This document shows positions 3,969-28,385 of a stretch of DNA of 64,000 nucleotides, piece after piece. The notes under the pieces are model-generated. The model ran no database searches. It saw nothing but the letters and a program-made list of their open reading frames with translations, and had not been told where the DNA came from. How positions within the stretch are numbered: the stretch's first letter is position 1; the number at the start of each line of letters is the position of its first letter. The stretch lies in the NCBI RefSeq assembly GCF_024346585.1, contig NZ_AP024523.1, positions 257,001 to 321,000 on the forward strand. The letters are read 5' to 3'. A program made the position numbers and the translations under genes. Source of the stretch: Streptococcus toyakuensis. Lineage in GTDB: Bacteria; Bacillota; Bacilli; Lactobacillales; Streptococcaceae.

Positions 3969-5387
3969 ATGGACAAATTATTTAAACTAAAAGAGAACGG
4001 TACAGACGTTCGTACAGAGGTTCTCGCTGGTTTAACAACTTTCTTTGCAATGAGCTATATTCTCTTTGTAAACCCACAAATTCTTTCGCAAACAGGAATG
4101 CCTGCTCAGGGTGTGTTCCTCGCAACGATTATCGGTGCAGTTGCTGGTACCTTGATGATGGCCTTCTATGCTAACTTGCCATATGCTCAAGCGCCAGGTA
4201 TGGGACTCAATGCCTTCTTTACCTTTACAGTTGTATTCGGACTTGGTTATTCATGGCAAGAAGCCCTAGCTATGGTCTTCATCTGTGGAATTATCTCATT
4301 GATTATTACCTTGACAAATGTTCGTAAAATGATCATTGAATCGATTCCGAATGCCCTTCGTTCAGCTATTTCAGCTGGTATCGGTGTCTTCCTTGCCTAC
4401 GTGGGAATTAAGAATGCTGGGCTTTTGAAATTCTCTATCGATCCAGGAAATTATACGGTTGCAGGAGAAGGGGCTGACAAGGCTCAAGCAGCGATTACAG
4501 CAAATGCGTCAGCGGTTCCAGGATTGGTCAGCTTTAATAATCCAGCTGTTTTGGTGGCTCTTGCAGGACTTGCCATTACGATCTTCTTTGTTATTAAAGG
4601 GATTAAAGGGGGAATTATCCTCTCTATCTTGACAACGACTGTTCTTGCTATCGCAGTTGGTTTGGTAGATTTGTCTAGTATCGATTTTGCTAATAACCAT
4701 GTTGGTGCAGCCTTTGAAGATTTGAAGACAGTCTTTGGTGCAGCTCTTGGTTCAGAAGGTTTGGGAGCTTTGATTTCAGATACAGCTCGCTTGCCTGAAA
4801 CTCTGATGGCTATTCTCGCCTTCTCATTGACAGATATTTTTGACACAATTGGTACCTTGATCGGTACAGGTGAAAAAGTTGGTATCGTAGCGACAAATGG
4901 TGAAAATCATCAATCAGCTAAGTTGGACAAGGCTCTTTACTCTGACTTAATTGGTACTTCAATTGGTGCCATCGCAGGTACTTCAAACGTAACGACTTAT
5001 GTTGAGTCTGCTGCTGGTATCGGTGCAGGTGGACGTACTGGTTTGACAGCCTTGGTCGTGGCAATCTGTTTTGCGATCTCAAGCTTCTTTAGCCCACTTC
5101 TAGCGATTGTACCAACAGCCGCTACAGCTCCAATCTTGATTATCGTTGGGATTATGATGTTGGCTAGCTTGAAAAATATCCATTGGGATGATATGTCTGA
5201 AGCGGTTCCTGCTTTCTTCACATCTATCTTTATGGGATTCAGCTACTCTATCACTCAAGGGATTGCAGTTGGTTTCTTGACTTACACTTTGACTAAGCTT
5301 GTTAAAGGTCAAGCTAAAGATGTTCATGTCATGATTTGGATTTTGGATGCCTTGTTTATCCTTAACTACATCAGTATGGCCTTATAA
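3969..5387 (+). CDS. NCS2/AzgA-family purine permease (PbuG-like)
   Basis: This polytopic membrane protein probably imports hypoxanthine, guanine or adenine with protons. From the ATG at 3969 it has 472 residues. An in-frame upstream start was rejected because AAAGGAG sits just before 3969. Visible motifs include MSYILFVNP and APGMGLNAFF near the N-terminus and SLTDIFDTIGTLIGT in the middle, which are typical of AzgA/PbuG permeases. More than ten hydrophobic segments are present. It is transcribed alone, ending at a strong terminator. Which purine base it prefers cannot be judged. Confidence 0.85.
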   Translation: MDKLFKLKENGTDVRTEVLAGLTTFFAMSYILFVNPQILSQTGMPAQGVFLATIIGAVAGTLMMAFYANLPYAQAPGMGLNAFFTFTVVFGLGYSWQEALAMVFICGIISLIITLTNVRKMIIESIPNALRSAISAGIGVFLAYVGIKNAGLLKFSIDPGNYTVAGEGADKAQAAITANASAVPGLVSFNNPAVLVALAGLAITIFFVIKGIKGGIILSILTTTVLAIAVGLVDLSSIDFANNHVGAAFEDLKTVFGAALGSEGLGALISDTARLPETLMAILAFSLTDIFDTIGTLIGTGEKVGIVATNGENHQSAKLDKALYSDLIGTSIGAIAGTSNVTTYVESAAGIGAGGRTGLTALVVAICFAISSFFSPLLAIVPTAATAPILIIVGIMMLASLKNIHWDDMSEAVPAFFTSIFMGFSYSITQGIAVGFLTYTLTKLVKGQAKDVHVMIWILDALFILNYISMAL

Positions 5388-21271: not shown

Positions 21272-22045
21272 ATGATTTTTGATACACATACACACTTGAA
21301 TGTAGAAGAATTTGCAGGTCGTGAGGCAGAAGAAATTACCTTGGCTGCTGAGATGGGTGTGACACAGATGAATATTGTTGGTTTTGATAAACCGACGATT
21401 GAGCGTGCTTTGGAGTTGGTGGATGAGTACGACCAACTCTACGCGACTATTGGTTGGCATCCGACAGAAGCGGGGACTTACACGGAGGAGATTGAAGCCT
21501 ACTTGCTTGATAAGCTCAAGCATCCAAAGGTAGTTGCCTTGGGTGAGATTGGTTTGGATTACCATTGGATGACAGCGCCAAAAGAGGTGCAGGAGCAGGT
21601 TTTTCGCCGTCAGATTCAGTTATCTAAGGACTTGGATTTGCCTTTTGTAGTTCATACCCGTGATGCGTTGGAAGATACCTATGAGATTATCAAGAGCGAG
21701 GGCGTTGGTCCTCGAGGTGGTATCATGCATTCATTTTCAGGGACGCTTGAGTGGGCAGAGAAGTTTGTCGAGCTTGGTATGACCATTTCCTTCTCAGGAG
21801 TGGTGACTTTCAAGAAGGCAACTGACATCCAAGAAGCAGCTAAAGAGTTACCTTTGGACAAGATTTTGGTGGAAACGGATGCTCCCTACTTGGCTCCTGT
21901 TCCTAAACGTGGTCGTGAAAATAAAACAGCCTACACTCGCTATGTAGTGGACTTTATCGCTGACTTGCGTGGCATGACGGCAGAAGAGCTAGCGGCGGTA
22001 ACAACTGCAAATGCGGAGCGAATTTTTGGATTGGATAGCAAATAA
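21272..22045 (+). CDS. tatD: TatD-family metal-dependent DNase
   Basis: This cytoplasmic hydrolase has 257 residues. The amidohydrolase-type metal ligands are visible: FDTHTHLN at 3-10, GEIGLDYH near 90-97, VVHTRDA, IMHSFSG and VETDAPYL near 203-210. The stop codon overlaps the rnmV start by one base (TAATG), the conserved tatD-rnmV pairing. Confidence 0.93.
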   Translation: MIFDTHTHLNVEEFAGREAEEITLAAEMGVTQMNIVGFDKPTIERALELVDEYDQLYATIGWHPTEAGTYTEEIEAYLLDKLKHPKVVALGEIGLDYHWMTAPKEVQEQVFRRQIQLSKDLDLPFVVHTRDALEDTYEIIKSEGVGPRGGIMHSFSGTLEWAEKFVELGMTISFSGVVTFKKATDIQEAAKELPLDKILVETDAPYLAPVPKRGRENKTAYTRYVVDFIADLRGMTAEELAAVTTANAERIFGLDSK

Positions 22046-22605
22046 TGAAAGAAAAAATTTCTCAAGTTATCGTGGTCGAAGGGCGCGATGATACGGCCAA
22101 TCTCAAACGTTACTTCGATGTAGAGACCTATGAGACCCGAGGTTCTGCCATCAATGATCAGGATATAGAGCGGATTCAGCGCTTGCACCAACGTCATGGA
22201 GTCATTGTCTTTACAGACCCAGATTTTAATGGGGAGCGGATTCGGCGCATGATCATGACGGCCATTCCAACGGTTCAGCATGCCTTCCTCAAACGAGATG
22301 AAGCTGTTCCCAAGTCCAAAACCAAGGGGCGTTCTCTGGGAATTGAGCATGCCAGCTATGAAGATTTGAAAACGGCTCTAGCTCAGGTGACAGAACAATT
22401 TGAACATGAGAGTCAGTTTGACATCAGTCGTAGCGACTTGATTCGCCTTGGTTTTCTAGCAGGGTCAGACAGCCGTAAGCGCAGAGAATATCTAGGAGAG
22501 GCTCTCCGAATCGGCTATTCCAACGGCAAGCAACTCCTCAAACGCCTAGAGTTGTTTGGGGTCACCTTGGCGGAAGTGGAAGAAGCTATGAAATCTTATG
22601 AGTAG
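22045..22605 (+). CDS. rnmV: Ribonuclease M5
   Basis: This Toprim-domain enzyme (186 residues) matures the 3' and 5' ends of 5S rRNA. The Toprim signatures VVEGRDD (9-15) and FTDPDFNGERIRR are clear, and the chain length is normal. It is translationally coupled to tatD. In many Firmicutes rsmA follows directly; here the bacteriocin locus lies between rnmV and rsmA. Confidence 0.93.
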   Translation: MKEKISQVIVVEGRDDTANLKRYFDVETYETRGSAINDQDIERIQRLHQRHGVIVFTDPDFNGERIRRMIMTAIPTVQHAFLKRDEAVPKSKTKGRSLGIEHASYEDLKTALAQVTEQFEHESQFDISRSDLIRLGFLAGSDSRKRREYLGEALRIGYSNGKQLLKRLELFGVTLAEVEEAMKSYE

Positions 22606-22676
22606 GAAAGATGTAGCCGTTACAATTTTTTAAGTTTCACAGTATTTTTCGAAGCAGGTAGAAGAGGAGGCGTCTA

Positions 22677-23588
22677 ATGTTAATTGGTCAAAAAATTAAA
22701 GAGATTCGGATAGAAAAAGGAATTAGTCGTCCAGATTTTTGTGGAGATGAGCAAGAACTGACAGTTCGTCAACTGTCGCGAATTGAAAGTGGAGCTTCGC
22801 AACCAAGTTTGCCCAAGTTAGACTATATTGCTCGCCGGCTAGGAGTTCCAGCTTATAGCCTTATGCCGGATTTTTCAGCTCTTCCTCCTGCTTATTTAGA
22901 ATTGAAATACCAAATTTTACGTGAACCAATCTATGGTAAAGAAGAGGAGTATGATAAGAAGGAAGCGTGTTTGGAAGAGATAGAGGATTTATTTTATGAG
23001 CAACTTCCTAATGAGGAAAAAATATGGTTTGAAGCTACTAGAGCAACGATAGATGTTATTCGAAGCGGACGACCAGAATATGGGGAAACCGTACTGGACG
23101 ATTATTTTAAAACAATTTATGATAAGGAATTGTTTTTGATAAATGAATTAGAAGTTATCAACTTATATTTTGCTATAGTGCTTACAAAGATAAAACAAGG
23201 TCAAAATCAGATTGAAGAAATTAACAGAATTCATTCGTTTTTAGTTCGTTTGACAAATCATGTAGAATTAATTGCACCAGAATATCTGTTTGCTTTAAGT
23301 AACACTTTGTTTTCGGGTCTAGCCTGTTTGGATAATTTGTCGTCTTATGATTCACTCGGAGCTTATATCTTTAGCCTTAATCATATAATGGAAAAAACAC
23401 AAGATTTTCAGAAGAAACCAATTATATTAATGTTGGAGTGGAAATTATCTCTAATAATAAACAATGATTATGTTTCTGCCGAACAGTTCTATCAGAAATC
23501 GAAGCTATTTGCTGATATAATAGAAAATTCTTATTTAGTTACTATGTTGGAGAAACAATGGCAAGAAGATTTAAAAAAATATTTATAA
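22677..23588 (+). CDS. ComR/PlcR-type (RRNPP) peptide-sensing transcriptional regulator
   Basis: This is a cytoplasmic regulator of 303 residues, the length of ComR. An N-terminal XRE helix-turn-helix (about 5-60) contains ELTVRQLSRIESGASQPSL and YIARRLG. From memory this aligns closely with the S. thermophilus ComR DNA-binding domain. The rest is alpha-helical, as in the TPR peptide-binding domain, and ends with a ComR-like helix around SAEQFYQKSKLFADIIENS. The start follows AGAGGAGG. A terminator follows, then a ComR-type palindrome and a Trp-Trp peptide gene, which together point to pheromone control of the bacteriocin genes downstream. PlcR is the other label such proteins receive. Confidence 0.82.
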   Translation: MLIGQKIKEIRIEKGISRPDFCGDEQELTVRQLSRIESGASQPSLPKLDYIARRLGVPAYSLMPDFSALPPAYLELKYQILREPIYGKEEEYDKKEACLEEIEDLFYEQLPNEEKIWFEATRATIDVIRSGRPEYGETVLDDYFKTIYDKELFLINELEVINLYFAIVLTKIKQGQNQIEEINRIHSFLVRLTNHVELIAPEYLFALSNTLFSGLACLDNLSSYDSLGAYIFSLNHIMEKTQDFQKKPIILMLEWKLSLIINNDYVSAEQFYQKSKLFADIIENSYLVTMLEKQWQEDLKKYL

Positions 23589-23634
23589 ACATAGTGAATC
23601 AGTGACAAAAATGTCCTTGTTCTAGTATTGAAAT

Positions 23635-23667
23635 AGTTCTAAAGTTCGTCTTTAGGACTGTTTTTTA
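23635..23667 (+). terminator. Terminator of the ComR-like regulator gene
   Basis: AGTTCTAAAG (23635-23644) pairs with CTTTAGGACT (23650-23659), followed by a G and six T residues. Confidence 0.8.
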
Positions 23668-23704
23668 TATATAAGCTAAAAATGACACGAAATGGTTCTA
23701 TTTT

Positions 23705-23749
23705 AAGGACATTGATGTCCTTTGAGTTTATTTAAGAATAATTTATAAT
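23705..23749 (+). promoter_or_regulatory. ComR-type box and promoter of the Trp-Trp peptide gene
   Basis: Bases 23705-23722 read AAGGACATTGATGTCCTT, a perfect palindrome with the GACATNNATGTC core known for ComR boxes. A T-rich spacer leads to TATAAT at 23744-23749; the -35 is poor (TTGAGT). The palindrome is centred about 42 bp before the expected start point, which suits an activator. Confidence 0.7.
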
Positions 23750-23777
23750 TAATAAAAATGTGAAAGGAGATTACAGT

Positions 23778-23825
23778 ATGAACTTTTTTAGTTTATTTTA
23801 TTTAGTTACTTGGTGGTTTAAATAA
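23778..23825 (+). CDS. Putative ComS/XIP-like pheromone precursor (15 aa)
   Basis: The frame encodes MNFFSLFYLVTWWFK and stops at TAA. AGGAG at 23765-23769 stands eight bases before the ATG, stronger than many genes here. The hydrophobic N-terminal part and the Trp-Trp followed by exactly two residues mirror the ComS peptides of S. mutans (GLDWWSL end) and S. pyogenes (VDWWRL end). By analogy the mature signal would be the last seven or eight residues, imported by Ami and bound by the regulator at 22677. The gene is too short for standard callers. The function is inference from motif plus context. Confidence 0.7.
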   Translation: MNFFSLFYLVTWWFK

Positions 23826-23921
23826 AATTTAGTTATGTCTACTTAGTCTCAAAAAATTTATTCATAACATATAATAAATACAACTTGATAGACTAAATTA
23901 GAAAAATAAGGAGAGGATACC

Positions 23922-23972
23922 ATGAGGTGTTGCTTTGAAAAGGTCTATGATCCAGGACTTAGTTTTACTTGA
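23922..23972 (+). CDS. Possible second small peptide gene (16 aa)
   Basis: The frame encodes MRCCFEKVYDPGLSFT, with AAGGAGAGG about six bases upstream of the ATG. A TATAAT at 23870-23875 could serve it, although no good -35 is seen. I know no matching peptide. It could be a genuine small protein, a leader, or the remnant of a longer gene. The surrounding sequence from 23826 to 24034 is very AT-rich and otherwise contains only a repeated TATAATAAATA (23870 and 23990), probably two -10 regions. Confidence 0.35.
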   Translation: MRCCFEKVYDPGLSFT

Positions 23973-24034
23973 ATAGAAAATGGACAATATATAATAAATA
24001 TTTATGATAAAATAAAAAATAGAGGAGTATCAAT

Positions 24035-24331
24035 ATGAAACAAACAGTTAAAAAATTAGCCCTTGTAGCGAGCATTGCAGCAACATTAGGTGGAAGTGTA
24101 GCAGTAGTATCGGCCGCGGTTAAGTATCCAGATGGTGGTGTCTGGACGTATGGTTCAGGTGACGGAGGTGCTTACTCAAACTACTATCACTCTTCAGAAT
24201 ATCATAGCTCAACAGTTGTTAGTAGAAAAACTGGTTCATCTGATAAGGGATATGCTGGTGCTGGAGGGACTTCTCGTGCATGGATTCGTACTTCTTGGGG
24301 AGAGAAAGTTGCATTCTACTATAATGTTTAG
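24035..24331 (+). CDS. Lactococcin 972-family bacteriocin precursor
   Basis: This secreted antimicrobial precursor has 98 residues. A Sec signal peptide (basic MKQTVKK, hydrophobic core, VSA cleavage near residue 27) leaves a mature part of about 71 residues. The mature part begins with KYPDGGVWTYG and contains AYSNYYHSSEYHSSTVV and a C-terminal KVAFYYN, the hallmarks of lactococcin 972. Members bind lipid II and block septum formation (family knowledge). AGAGGAG precedes the ATG. Pneumococcal relatives have been called streptococcins. The membrane protein and ATPase downstream are its usual partners. Confidence 0.9.
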   Translation: MKQTVKKLALVASIAATLGGSVAVVSAAVKYPDGGVWTYGSGDGGAYSNYYHSSEYHSSTVVSRKTGSSDKGYAGAGGTSRAWIRTSWGEKVAFYYNV

Positions 24332-24358
24332 AATGGTATAGCCCTATTGTTTAGCTTT

Positions 24359-24389
24359 ACTTGGTCACCTTCTCACTAAGTGACCAAGT
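24359..24389 (+). terminator. Hairpin between bacteriocin and transporter genes
   Basis: A perfect 10-bp stem, ACTTGGTCAC with GTGACCAAGT, has an 11-base loop. Only five T residues follow after AAC, so it may act as a partial terminator or mRNA-stabilising hairpin. Confidence 0.55.
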
Positions 24390-24407
24390 AACTTTTTGGA
24401 GGAAATG

Positions 24408-26438
24408 ATGAAACGTTTATTTATTTTGATTTCAATGGTATTGGTATCGCTTTATATGGTGATAACTTCCGTTGACCATCGAGAAGAGATTTTATTTGGT
24501 AACTATCCTTCTGTTGATGTGACAGGAATGGTGATAAATCAACCAGTAGCTAGTCGCGAAGAGGTGACAGAGGCTTTGAGTCACTTGGCGGTAGAGCATA
24601 ATAGTCTCATCGCCCGTCGGATTGTTGAGCCAAATGAAGCTGGAGAAACACGCTTTATCTATGCCACTTATGGTGAGGGAGAGCTTCCAGAAGGTCTGAC
24701 CATTTCCTCCAAGGAGAGTTCAGAAACGAGTGATTTATTAGGGTCTTACTTGATTGTGTCAGGAAGTTTGGATGGAGTGAGTTTACAGACCACCTTGAAA
24801 GAACTTGGTTATCAAGGCTTTGTTTCGAATGGAGAAGATCCATTTTCGATAGTCTTATTATTGGCGGCCACCCCTATGGGGCTACTGAGTCTAGCTATTT
24901 TTCTGCTGACCTTTATGAGTCTGACCCTGATTTATCGGATCAAGTCCCTTCGTCAAGCAGGGATTCGCTTAATAGCTGGTGAGAGCTTGTTTGGAGTGGC
25001 TCTCAGACCAGTGTTAGAAGATGTGAGACAGCTTATCTGCTCAGTGCTGGTATCCAGTCTTTTGGGATTGGGGATTCTCTGGTATCAAGGTGCCTTGTTT
25101 ATGGCAACGGTACAACTGGTCATCATTGGTCTTTTGCTTTATGGATTGGCCTTGGTAGGGATTTCTACCTTATTAAGTATCGTGTATCTACTTGGTTTAC
25201 AAGAAAATAGTCTGGTGGATCTATTGAAAGGGAAACTCCCTCTCAAACGTATGATGACATTGATGATGGTGGGGCAACTCTTGGCCGTGCTGGTGGTCGG
25301 CTCGAGTGCGACTGCTCTCCTACCCCACTACCGTGAAATGCAGGAAATGGAGAGAGCTAGCGATAAATGGAGCCAGTCCTCAGACCGTTACCGTCTATCC
25401 TTTGGTTGGTCTAGTGCATTTGCCGATGAAGAAGGAATGCGTAAGGATAATCGTGAGTGGCAGACATTTACTGAAGAACGGTTAGCCAATACAGACTCTT
25501 TTTATATTATGAGCAATGTTGACAATTTCTCAGATGGAGCAGAAGTGGACCTAGATGGCAATCGTCTCAATGACTACACACCGTCAGGGAATGTCATCTA
25601 TGTCTCACCGCGCTATCTGATAGAAGAAAAGATTACCGTTTCTTCAGAGTTTATGGATAAGATGCAAAACTTGTCTGAGGGAGAGTTTGGGCTGATCTTG
25701 CCTGAGAGCTTGCGAGAGCAGTCTGCCTACTATCAAGGATTATTTACAGATTACCTGCAAAACTTTTCATCTGAAAGTGTAGAAGTGACGAGTCAGAAAC
25801 ACTACCTCCCACAGGTAACGCTAGCTTTTACAGAAACAGGACAGGAACGCTTCCTCTATAACGATGGGTACAAGACGACACGCCAGTACCTAAAAGATCC
25901 GATTATTGTAGTTTTAACGCCGCAAGCGACTGGAACAAGACCTGTTGCAGGGATGTTATGGGGAACTACGGCTAATAGTGCCTTGAAATTAGATCAATAT
26001 CAAGACAGCATCACAGCTCTAAAAGAGCAAGGTCTGTATCACAAGGTCTCTTATTTGGTAAAAAGCCAGCTATTTTTTGCCAAGGTACTAAATGACAAAC
26101 GGATGGAGTTCTACTCTCTCCTTATTGGGACTATTTTGACTCTATCTACGGCTATCTTGTTATTTGATTCCATGAATCTTCTCTATTTTGAGCAGTTTAG
26201 ACGGGAGATCATGATTAAACGTCTTTCTGGTATGACAATCTATGAGCTTCATGGCAAGTACTTACTGGCGCAAGGAGGAGTTCTCTTACTTGGGCTAATC
26301 CTATCTAGTGTTTTGACAGGAGATAGCTTGATTAGCGCTCTAGTTGTAGCTTTATTTACTCTTAACGCCCTCTTGATTTTAGTAAGGCAGGATAAAAAGG
26401 AAGAAGCTGGTAGCATGGCAGTATTGAAAGGAAAATAA
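24408..26438 (+). CDS. Bacteriocin-associated integral membrane protein
   Basis: This large membrane protein (676 residues) is of the type paired with lactococcin 972 systems. One hydrophobic segment at the N-terminus (LFILISMVLVSLYMVIT) is followed by an extracytoplasmic domain, a membrane block from about 145 to 300, a second long soluble domain (about 310-560), and C-terminal membrane segments in an FtsX-like arrangement. The start at 24408 gives the best spacing from GGAGG. With the ATPase two bases downstream it forms an ABC transporter for export or self-immunity; which of the two is not settled. Confidence 0.82.
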   Translation: MKRLFILISMVLVSLYMVITSVDHREEILFGNYPSVDVTGMVINQPVASREEVTEALSHLAVEHNSLIARRIVEPNEAGETRFIYATYGEGELPEGLTISSKESSETSDLLGSYLIVSGSLDGVSLQTTLKELGYQGFVSNGEDPFSIVLLLAATPMGLLSLAIFLLTFMSLTLIYRIKSLRQAGIRLIAGESLFGVALRPVLEDVRQLICSVLVSSLLGLGILWYQGALFMATVQLVIIGLLLYGLALVGISTLLSIVYLLGLQENSLVDLLKGKLPLKRMMTLMMVGQLLAVLVVGSSATALLPHYREMQEMERASDKWSQSSDRYRLSFGWSSAFADEEGMRKDNREWQTFTEERLANTDSFYIMSNVDNFSDGAEVDLDGNRLNDYTPSGNVIYVSPRYLIEEKITVSSEFMDKMQNLSEGEFGLILPESLREQSAYYQGLFTDYLQNFSSESVEVTSQKHYLPQVTLAFTETGQERFLYNDGYKTTRQYLKDPIIVVLTPQATGTRPVAGMLWGTTANSALKLDQYQDSITALKEQGLYHKVSYLVKSQLFFAKVLNDKRMEFYSLLIGTILTLSTAILLFDSMNLLYFEQFRREIMIKRLSGMTIYELHGKYLLAQGGVLLLGLILSSVLTGDSLISALVVALFTLNALLILVRQDKKEEAGSMAVLKGK

Positions 26439-26439
26439 G

Positions 26440-27081
26440 ATGATTGATATTCAAGAATTGGAAAAGAAGTTTAATGACCGCGCGATTTTCTCTGGTTTAA
26501 ATCTCAAGTTGGAGAAGGGCAAGGTTTATGCCTTAATCGGAAAGAGTGGAAGCGGAAAGACGACTTTGCTTAATATCTTAGGAAAGCTAGAAAAGATAGA
26601 TGGTGGAAGGGTTCTCTATCAGGGGAAAGATTTAAAAACCATTCCCACTCGTGAGTATTTTCGAGACCAGATGGGCTATCTCTTTCAAAATTTTGGACTC
26701 TTAGAAAACCAATCAATCAAAGAGAATTTGGATTTGGGCTTTGTTGGTCAAAAAATTTCAAAAGTAGAACGTTTGGAAAGGCAAGTGGAGGCTTTAGAAA
26801 AGGTTAATCTAGGGTATTTGGATCTAGAACAAAAAATTTATACTTTATCTGGGGGAGAGGCCCAACGAGTTGCCCTTGCGAAGACTATTTTGAAAAATCC
26901 ACCCTTGATTTTGGCAGATGAACCAACAGCAGCTCTTGATCCTGAAAATTCAGAGGAGGTTATGAATCTCTTGGTGGGATTGAAAGATGAAAATCGAATG
27001 ATCATCATTGCGACCCATAATCCCCTAGTCTGGAATAAGGCTGATGAAATCATTGATATGAGGGAGCTTGCTCATGTGTGA
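26440..27081 (+). CDS. Bacteriocin ABC transporter, ATP-binding protein
   Basis: This MacB/LolD-type ATPase (213 residues) powers the preceding membrane protein. Walker A is IGKSGSGKTT near 33-42, the Q-loop is YLFQNFG, the signature is LSGGEAQRVALAK, and Walker B is LILADEPTAALDP. The start is one base after the upstream stop, and the last bases overlap the next gene, so the cluster is one transcript. The family is the lactococcin 972 ABC subunit by context. Confidence 0.9.
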   Translation: MIDIQELEKKFNDRAIFSGLNLKLEKGKVYALIGKSGSGKTTLLNILGKLEKIDGGRVLYQGKDLKTIPTREYFRDQMGYLFQNFGLLENQSIKENLDLGFVGQKISKVERLERQVEALEKVNLGYLDLEQKIYTLSGGEAQRVALAKTILKNPPLILADEPTAALDPENSEEVMNLLVGLKDENRMIIIATHNPLVWNKADEIIDMRELAHV

Positions 27082-27382
27082 AAAAATCCGTATTCGCAGG
27101 GTATCTGATTATCCTAGTGCCAGAGGTGGTTTAGAAGATATTCTCATCATGGAAAATATGACCAATCATCTCCTTTTGGTTCAAATCCGAGTGAATGGCT
27201 ATTTGCTTGATTTTGCTAGCATTGAAGGGCAAAGGCAAAAGCATTATCGTTTGAAAAATTTACCTCAAACGGTTGAACTGACAGTGGATGATGTGGAGGA
27301 GGATGTAGATTTGACCCTACCCGAAAATCGAAGTTATCAAGAAGCTGATTTTTTCGAACGTATGTTTCGCGAGAAGCGCTAA
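27074..27382 (+). CDS. Small hypothetical protein in the bacteriocin operon
   Basis: This acidic soluble protein has 102 residues from the ATG at 27074, overlapping the ATPase gene by eight bases, with AGGGAG as ribosome site. No signal peptide or membrane segment is seen. The central part (HLLLVQIRVNGYLLDFASIE) and the acidic VDDVEEDVDLTLPE stretch suggest a beta-rich domain. I recognise no family. Its position just before the operon terminator suggests an immunity or accessory role (inference only). Confidence 0.6.
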   Translation: MCEKIRIRRVSDYPSARGGLEDILIMENMTNHLLLVQIRVNGYLLDFASIEGQRQKHYRLKNLPQTVELTVDDVEEDVDLTLPENRSYQEADFFERMFREKR

Positions 27383-27406
27383 GTCCCCCTTTAAAGATTT
27401 CCAAGA

Positions 27407-27438
27407 CTATCTTTCTTCACGAGGAAAGATAGTTTTTT
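27407..27438 (+). terminator. Terminator of the bacteriocin operon
   Basis: CTATCTTTC (27407-27415) pairs with GAAAGATAG (27424-27432), followed by six T residues. Confidence 0.85.
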
Positions 27439-27512
27439 GGTATGATTTTCACCCCCAAAATACAAGGGGAATGTGTTACAATAGTAGTAACAGATAATAG
27501 AAAAGAGAATAG

Positions 27513-28385
27513 ATGAGAATTGCAGATTATAGCGTGACCAAGGCAGTGCTGGAGCGTCACGGTTTTACCTTTAAAAAGTCTTTCGGGCAAAATTTCTTGA
27601 CGGATACTAATATCCTTCAAAAAATTGTGGATACGGCTGAAATTGATGACCAGGTCAATGTTATTGAAATCGGGCCAGGGATTGGTGCCTTGACAGAATT
27701 TTTGGCTGAGCGTGCAGCTCAAGTCATGGCCTTTGAGATTGACCACCGTTTGGTACCGATTTTGGCAGATACTCTTCGTGATTTTGACAATGTAACAGTG
27801 GTTAACGAGGACATTCTCAAAGTTGATTTGGCGCAACATATCCAGAATTTCAAAAATCCTGACCTGCCAATCAAGGTAGTAGCTAACTTGCCTTACTATA
27901 TCACGACGCCTATTCTTATGCACTTGATCGAAAGTGGCATTCCTTTTAGTGAGTTTGTGGTCATGATGCAAAAAGAAGTGGCGGATCGCATTTCAGCCCA
28001 ACCTAACACCAAGGCTTACGGTAGCTTGTCGATTGCGGTTCAGTACTACATGACAGCCAAGGTTGCCTTTATCGTGCCGCGTACAGTCTTTGTGCCAGCG
28101 CCAAATGTGGATTCAGCTATTTTGAAAATGGTGCGTCGTCCAGAGCCAGCCGTAGCAGTGGAAGACGAGAACTTCTTCTTTAAGGTTTCCAAGGCTAGTT
28201 TCACCCATCGCCGTAAGACCTTGTGGAACAACTTGACGGGCTACTTTGGCAAGACTGAAGAAGTCAAGGATAAATTGACCAAGGCCTTGGATCAAGCGGG
28301 CTTGTCACCAAGTGTGCGTGGGGAAGCTCTCAGCTTGGCAGAATTCGCCAGTCTAGCAGATGCACTTAAAGGGCAAGGACTCTAA
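27513..28385 (+). CDS. rsmA: 16S rRNA dimethyladenosine transferase (KsgA)
   Basis: This SAM-dependent enzyme dimethylates two adjacent adenosines near the 3' end of 16S rRNA. It has 290 residues. Visible are [11 protein letters not shown] near 20-30, the SAM loop [15 protein letters not shown], and the catalytic [10 protein letters not shown] near 124-133. It is followed one base later by rsgA, so both ribosome-biogenesis genes are probably co-transcribed. Confidence 0.96.

Follow-up and report, generated by a model that had tools for sequence, protein, structure and literature searches.

The closest described relative of the locus analyzed here is the streptococcin B (scb) locus of S. pneumoniae, for which the available passages of a 2024 report (PMC11796350) describe the regulator ScbR, its box motif, and a spacing of n20 from this box to a tataat element. 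According to the same passages, the scbS gene of S. pseudopneumoniae encodes a peptide ending in GDWWHG, and this peptide activated scb reporters in pneumococcus, for which both ScbR and Ami were needed. A ComE site is given there for 466/617, and a variant of ScbR for 84/617 pneumococci, the variant being 57% identical overall and identical at 101/103 positions in the N-terminus. GDWWHG, the type I peptide, was also able to activate this type II variant (strain SP18BS74), so the specificity of ScbR is not strict. Pneumococcal ScbR is further described as dispensable for competence, and pneumococci with intact but silent scbBC as being killed. We found no other account of the scb circuit in the literature searched, which covered few subscription papers. 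The available passages of PMC9067509, in which Lcn351 is a lactococcin-972-family bacteriocin of S. suis, do not describe the circuit, nor do those of PMC5167698 and PMC13059744. What is new here is a second pheromone type at this known locus.

We analyzed a 64,000-nucleotide stretch of the Streptococcus toyakuensis genome (hereafter the window), corresponding to positions 257001-321000 of its single 2.06-Mb contig. Coordinates given below refer to the window unless another locus is named, and the parts of the locus from scbR to its last ORF are on the plus strand except for two palindromes, to which no strand is assigned. A protein family scan showed that the regulator-bacteriocin locus is flanked by rnmV (22045-22605; TIGR00334) and ksgA (27513-28385; TIGR00755), and the scbA-scbB-scbC cargo occupies the same site between these two genes in the S. 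pneumoniae-named and type I loci compared. The gene scbA (24035-24331) encodes a lactococcin-972-type bacteriocin precursor (streptococcin B; Pfam/NCBIfam family Lactococcin_972), scbB (24405-26438) a bacteriocin-associated integral membrane protein (TIGR01654), and scbC (26440-27081) an L_ocin_972_ABC ATPase (TIGR03608), that is, the precursor, membrane protein and ATPase of a lactococcin 972 cluster are all present. The small conserved last ORF (27074-27382), which we name scbD, is found 3' of scbC in both mitis and S. suis-like loci, and had no Pfam/NCBIfam match at E 0.001. In 5 of the 21 mitis loci compared (L005, L014, L023, L007 and L008), the place of scbA is taken by a gene whose 159-residue product has an N-terminus resembling a signal peptide, and this gene is followed in 4 of these 5 loci by a hydrophobic ORF of 52-55 codons; the one of the five copies of this protein that was scanned had no match in Pfam/NCBIfam. 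The scb switch seems to change cargo between mitis loci.

The regulator gene, scbR (22677-23588), encodes a protein of 303 amino acids that the first-pass annotation, made from the letters of the sequence, had called ComR-like, and family, structure and model comparisons all agree with this claim. The protein matches the Pfam family ComR_TPR with 194.7 bits against a cut-off of 26.5, and carries the HTH and the ComR TPR domain that define the ComR family. Solved ComR structures match it as well, the best being 5fd4 (E 2.4e-64), with five distinct sequences that are all ComR entries, and the ten best PDB matches of its structural model are ComR chains. This model was based on an alignment of 33 rows including the window protein (mean pLDDT 91), whose database proteins were kept for structure and not for trees; a model from the single sequence was poor (pLDDT 49) and was discarded. 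Membership in the Rgg/SHP or PlcR groups was rejected, as the sequence and structure matches are to ComR, and those to PlcR and Rgg are much weaker. In residues 1-103, the window ScbR is identical to three of the four type I regulators compared at 101/103 positions, and to the fourth at 102/103; the overall identity to type I is 174/299, and that of the TPR half about 38%. A database search returned an S. pneumoniae protein (P0006) 98% identical to the window regulator over 80% of its length, and the contigs with regulators 91-99% identical are from Streptococcus, including S. infantis and S. shenyangsis; on this ground, we assign the window to the mitis group. Because the overall and N-terminal identities fit the published description, and because of this 98% identical S. 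pneumoniae protein, the window regulator is most likely a type II ScbR, the published variant of 84/617 pneumococci, as judged from the published description of this variant. Outside Streptococcus, a ComR-like protein of Ligilactobacillus animalis (P0022) is 42% identical to the window regulator.

The perfect ComR-box palindrome claimed earlier for 23705-23722 was recovered there as AAGGACATTGATGTCCTT, which is palindromic except for its central TG, and a -10 element TATAAT (23744-23749) follows 20 nt further on. The box taaggacattg(a/g)tgtcctt followed by TATAAT at the published scb spacing (n20) is thus present in the window, with a T where the published box motif ends in g. With up to three mismatches, AAGGACATTGATGTCCTT has four matches in the window, a number reached by none of 100 shuffles. 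The core GACATNNATGTC by itself carries little information, since it occurs at two places in the same genome versus four for a reversed control pattern. Its second place is between two ORFs, about 22 nt from the 3' end of one and about 340 nt ahead of the next, within a longer inverted repeat, and TATAAT is absent within 400 nt downstream on either strand. The box and TATAAT at fixed spacing, on the other hand, were found in 21 of 284 genomes of the genus and the control pattern in none; 19 of these 21 genomes have the pattern at scb-type loci, the two exceptions having it before an unrelated long ORF (G200) and between a ComR-like gene and ABC genes (G232). In the host genome, the pattern occurs once, at scb. 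The ComE repeat pattern of other scb promoters had no match in the 520 nt after scbR, a stretch that includes the interval from the ComR box to scbA. Direct ComE control of the window copy was rejected on this ground, and this copy is thus unlikely to be driven directly by competence. Another, imperfect ComR-like palindrome, GACAAAAATGTC (23604-23615), is located 15 nt after the scbR stop codon, ahead of a terminator-like hairpin (23630-23664), and a perfect palindrome is found at its position in the S. suis-like loci examined. At L107, which has a competence-type ComR pair, the box immediately behind the regulator is followed by a WW mini-gene, so that GACAAAAATGTC may be an old promoter. Between scbS and scbA no terminator-like hairpin was found, an RNA element in this leader was rejected because its fold is no better than those of shuffles (z 0.42), and Rfam returned no family at threshold in 22000-28000.

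The XIP peptides of the competence ComRS systems in S. mutans and S. pyogenes carry WW two residues from the C-terminus. The first-pass annotation had pointed to a 15-codon gene at 23778, preceded by a -10 element and a ribosome site, whose product ends in TWWFK, and we could confirm both the gene and the peptide end. The gene, scbS (23778-23825), starts with an ATG at 23778, has the ribosome-binding site AAGGAG at 23764-23769 downstream of TATAAT, and encodes MNFFSLFYLVTWWFK, likely a pheromone precursor; it is a short gene behind the box with WW near the C-terminus of its product. Among the 727 ATG mini-ORFs of 10-35 codons on both strands of the window, 19 have a Shine-Dalgarno match, and scbS is the sole one of these with WW in the last six residues. 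When the sequence 23589-24034 was shuffled 20,000 times, a WW mini-ORF arose in 30 shuffles, and one with a Shine-Dalgarno match too in only 2. The mini-gene protein is identical in 5 of the 8 loci with a type II regulator, with one synonymous base change. TWWFK is likely the missing signal of type II ScbR. The host genome has nine matches to PF00496, the oligopeptide-binding-protein family. We found no publication on TWWFK, FLVTWW or GWWIK peptides in the literature searched, where few subscription papers were covered, and SFGDWWHG was found in PMC11796350 only. The circuit itself has already been described, as scbR/scbS, streptococcin B; only the peptide, of which the first-pass annotation knew no description, was not found in print. 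A second mini-ORF, MRCCFEKVYDPGLSFT (23922-23972; MRCCFEKVYDP in relatives), follows 3' of scbS with its own ribosome site and the pattern MRC[CI]FEKVY.P, and is lengthened in the window by an altered stop codon. Its DNA pattern (up to one mismatch) was found in 13 of 284 genomes, always at an scb-type locus. The copies at the S. suis-like loci L099 and L100 are frameshifted, so this conserved stretch may act as DNA or RNA and not encode a protein.

We compared 21 mitis loci, 8 of type II and 13 of type I, leaving out one that has a 156-residue regulator fragment (L024/G129). An scbS gene is present in seven of them, ending in TWWFK in five, all type II, and in GDWWHG in two, both type I; this pairing alone is weak, as 5:0 versus 0:2 is one arrangement in 21 by chance. 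Seven of the 14 loci without scbS carry the ComE repeat, which is thus seen at 7/21 loci and never alongside scbS, and seven have neither. The core of the box is intact in 5/7 loci with scbS and in 9/14 without it, hence the palindrome core is independent of the mini-gene. The first-pass annotation expected otherwise intact relatives to retain the mini-gene, which is true for five of the eight type II loci and not for the other three. In one of these three (L004), the mini-gene was lost by a deletion that also removed scbA; in the other two (L007 and L008), the regulator is frameshifted, the ComE repeat replaces the mini-gene, and scbA-scbC were not found. One further locus (L027, in G090) has the TWWFK gene and an intact regulator, but a base change in its box, GATGCC for GATGTC.

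We also examined 11 S. suis-like loci, giving 32 loci together with those of the mitis group. In 5 of the 11, the regulator is 62-63% identical to that in the window, and the peptide is MFGYFKILDISGWWIKRG, ending in WWIKRG. The peptide ends in GDWWKGR at one other locus, a class resting on this one peptide, and in VWWTI or VWWTF at two; at one locus the mini-gene continues into bacteriocin sequence (GDIWW), and one locus is without a mini-gene. Tandem receptor pairs are found in 4 of the 11 loci, and in one genome (G259; L105/L106) the receptor next to a WWIKRG peptide belongs to another class, and its gene is divided between two contigs. Altogether, a peptide is present in 17 of the 32 loci, and its class fits the nearest receptor in 15 of these 17, which is consistent but does not amount to a strong test, since the S. 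suis-like classes rest on few examples. The two misfits are L100, whose peptide matches the more distant member of a tandem receptor pair, and G259, where the receptor is broken and of another class. When peptide similarity was compared with TPR similarity over six classes, including the awkward L100, the result was not significant, with 95/720 permutations as high, and for the HTH half 207/720 permutations were as high. One genome carrying scb (G228) has another ComR-like regulator, about 40% identical, and after base 5361 of this locus (L111) a palindrome, a promoter-like stretch and an ORF of 13 codons, MLVLVVAIFWIYK, lie between the regulator and ABC transporter genes; this is a possible further ComRS-like circuit. 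At four more loci (L108, L109, L110 and L112, in G160, G101, G228 and G108, respectively), a different ABC transporter gene is preceded by ComR-like regulators, whose stop codon is followed by a ComR-like box and which form a tandem pair at two of the four loci.

L016, a type I locus with a ScbA 100% identical to that of the window, was compared with the window in 75-base bins. The HTH half of scbR is 95-100% identical and the TPR half 40-63%; the 150 bp of boxes and terminator are 88-93% identical, the scbS module 35-53%, and the sequence beyond it 91-100%. The TPR half and the scbS module are two divergent islands within otherwise near-identical DNA. A similar island layout, with more scatter, is seen between S. 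suis-like loci of different type. Phylogenetic trees of the HTH halves reflect species, and those of the TPR halves reflect type, placing the window with the S. suis WWIKRG type. Approximately unbiased (AU) tests on the TPR half rejected a mitis clade (p 1.1e-4) and an S. suis clade (p 9e-5), and the test on the HTH half rejected a clade of the window plus the WWIKRG type (p 1.2e-4). These topology tests used 30 sequences. L007 was in the first trees and was taken out of the tests because its frameshifted tail is noise; also out were L003, L008, L013, L014, L015, L017, L020, L023, L051, L100a, L109, L110 and L112, mostly close relatives of included rows. Our reading of these results is that old receptor-pheromone types may have been kept in two species groups, with recombination near residue 103 homogenizing the DNA-binding half; alternatively, both islands may have been transferred between the species groups long ago. 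As far as these few loci indicate, the contrast between the HTH half, which follows species, and the TPR half, which joins the window to the S. suis WWIKRG type, makes scb a probable pherotype locus whose types are common to several species.

In S. thermophilus ComR, according to the available passages of PMC5131891, K100 binds the carboxylate of the peptide, N208 forms the pocket floor, and T90 and R92 both matter. In our alignment, K100 and Y91 correspond to K95 and Y86 of the window ScbR, and T90 and R92 are replaced by Ile and Gly, respectively; the K100 position is Gln in the VWW class. N208 corresponds to N209 of the window ScbR; the WWIKRG type shares this Asn with the window type, and all remaining types in the alignment have Asp there. 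Among the scb-type classes, WW peptides of Asp receptors have an Asp directly or one residue before WW, and peptides of Asn receptors are without it, suggesting that this pocket-floor position might set specificity. The more distant Asp receptor of L111 does not fit the pattern, as its candidate peptide has neither WW nor an acid.

Taken together, we consider it highly probable that the window harbors an scb locus with a second receptor-pheromone type, in which the predicted product of scbS signals through ScbR type II to scbS itself and scbA-scbB-scbC. In this model, low-level expression of scbS would yield a precursor that leaves the cell and is processed to roughly its last six residues (VTWWFK). 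An oligopeptide importer would bring this peptide back into the cell, where its binding would lead ScbR to dimerise, occupy the box and switch on scbS as well as scbA-scbB-scbC. The dependence on ScbR and Ami has been shown for the ortholog (PMC11796350, available passages); we infer that ScbR type II has TWWFK as its cognate signal, that the precursor is exported and trimmed, and that the feedback is positive. The first-pass interpretation of the locus as a ComRS-like bacteriocin switch is supported, the orthologous pneumococcal circuit being ScbR- and Ami-dependent by the reporter assays in the available passages of PMC11796350. The circuit might instead work without type specificity, any neighbour's WW peptide driving any ScbR and the type differences being drift, as could be argued from the response of the published type II variant to GDWWHG (PMC11796350, same passages) and from the non-significant class-level matrix test. 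We regard this as unlikely, because the divergence is confined to the TPR half and the scbS module, with 88-93% identity between them and 88-100% around them, a similar layout recurs between S. suis-like loci, and the TPR types group across species with the pairing kept in 15 of the 17 peptide-bearing loci.

The mini-gene could also be a decaying or chance ORF, with scb otherwise controlled, by a regulator listening to neighbours only or from a second promoter at scbA. Its absence from 14 of the 21 mitis loci, 9 of which retain the box core, would fit this, as would a promoter-like pair at 23981-24008, though such pairs are no commoner than in shuffles. This explanation appears very improbable, given that the mini-gene exceeds chance in shuffles, encodes an identical peptide in five loci with one synonymous change, and has a ribosome site as well as the place and architecture of the published scbS. 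It is hardly credible that the regulator, for all its resemblance to the competence ComR family, mainly drives competence (comX) and not the bacteriocin: pneumococcal ScbR is not needed for competence (PMC11796350, available passages), and a comC-family gene is present in the host genome. A main role as competence ComRS was rejected, as the box-promoter pattern occurs only at scb (comX itself was not located). Within 3756-5966 of L116, the comC-family gene (PF03047) is followed by comD-like and comE-like ORFs, which by their position are presumably comD and comE. Because the comE-like gene reads as two overlapping pieces of 212 and 45 codons in different frames, ComCDE competence may be off in the host, or a base may have been misread.

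A second pheromone type at scb would offer a likely partner for the ScbR variant of 84/617 pneumococci, for which the test given in the available passages of PMC11796350 used the other type's peptide only. It also provides a clean natural experiment on a change of receptor specificity, as the peptide-binding half and the signal gene differ and the DNA-binding half stays, in a layout that is similar in two distant streptococcal groups. Receptor-signal types that are mostly matched across distant streptococci would let cells tell kin from rivals, and the killing of pneumococci with silent scbBC suggests why the types might matter, if immunity came only with the matching signal. Tentatively, scb might even be a mating-type-like locus of kin recognition, its types being under balancing selection across the mitis and S. 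suis groups and recombination keeping the DNA-binding half and the backbone uniform within species. A neighbour of another type with the same bacteriocin and immunity genes would then die, since immunity would need the matching pheromone and its immunity genes would be silent, and pheromone type alone would decide survival.

Compared with known systems, the window locus resembles, by description, ScuR/SarF of S. salivarius, ComR-family sensors that uncouple bacteriocin production from competence, and these act in a species that also has a competence ComR (PMC6703854, available passages). The competence ComRS system has a similar ComR fold and box but drives comX (PMC5131902, available passages), whereas the box in the window stands before a bacteriocin operon. 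Several receptor-pheromone types within one species are likewise described for S. suis competence pherotypes, at a competence locus (PMC4072589, available passages); the S. suis-like scb-type loci lie apart from competence-type ComR genes in genomes with both, and their peptides differ from that of the one competence-type locus examined (L107). The closest system remains ScbR/ScbS (SIP) of S. pneumoniae and S. pseudopneumoniae, which, as far as its available passages go, shares with the window the gene order, the ComR-type regulator, the box and its spacing, the WW mini-gene, and scbABC. The window differs from it in that the ComE repeat of the SP9-type promoter was not found, and in its peptide, which is MFGFIMFLTYFSFGDWWHG there and MNFFSLFYLVTWWFK in the window.
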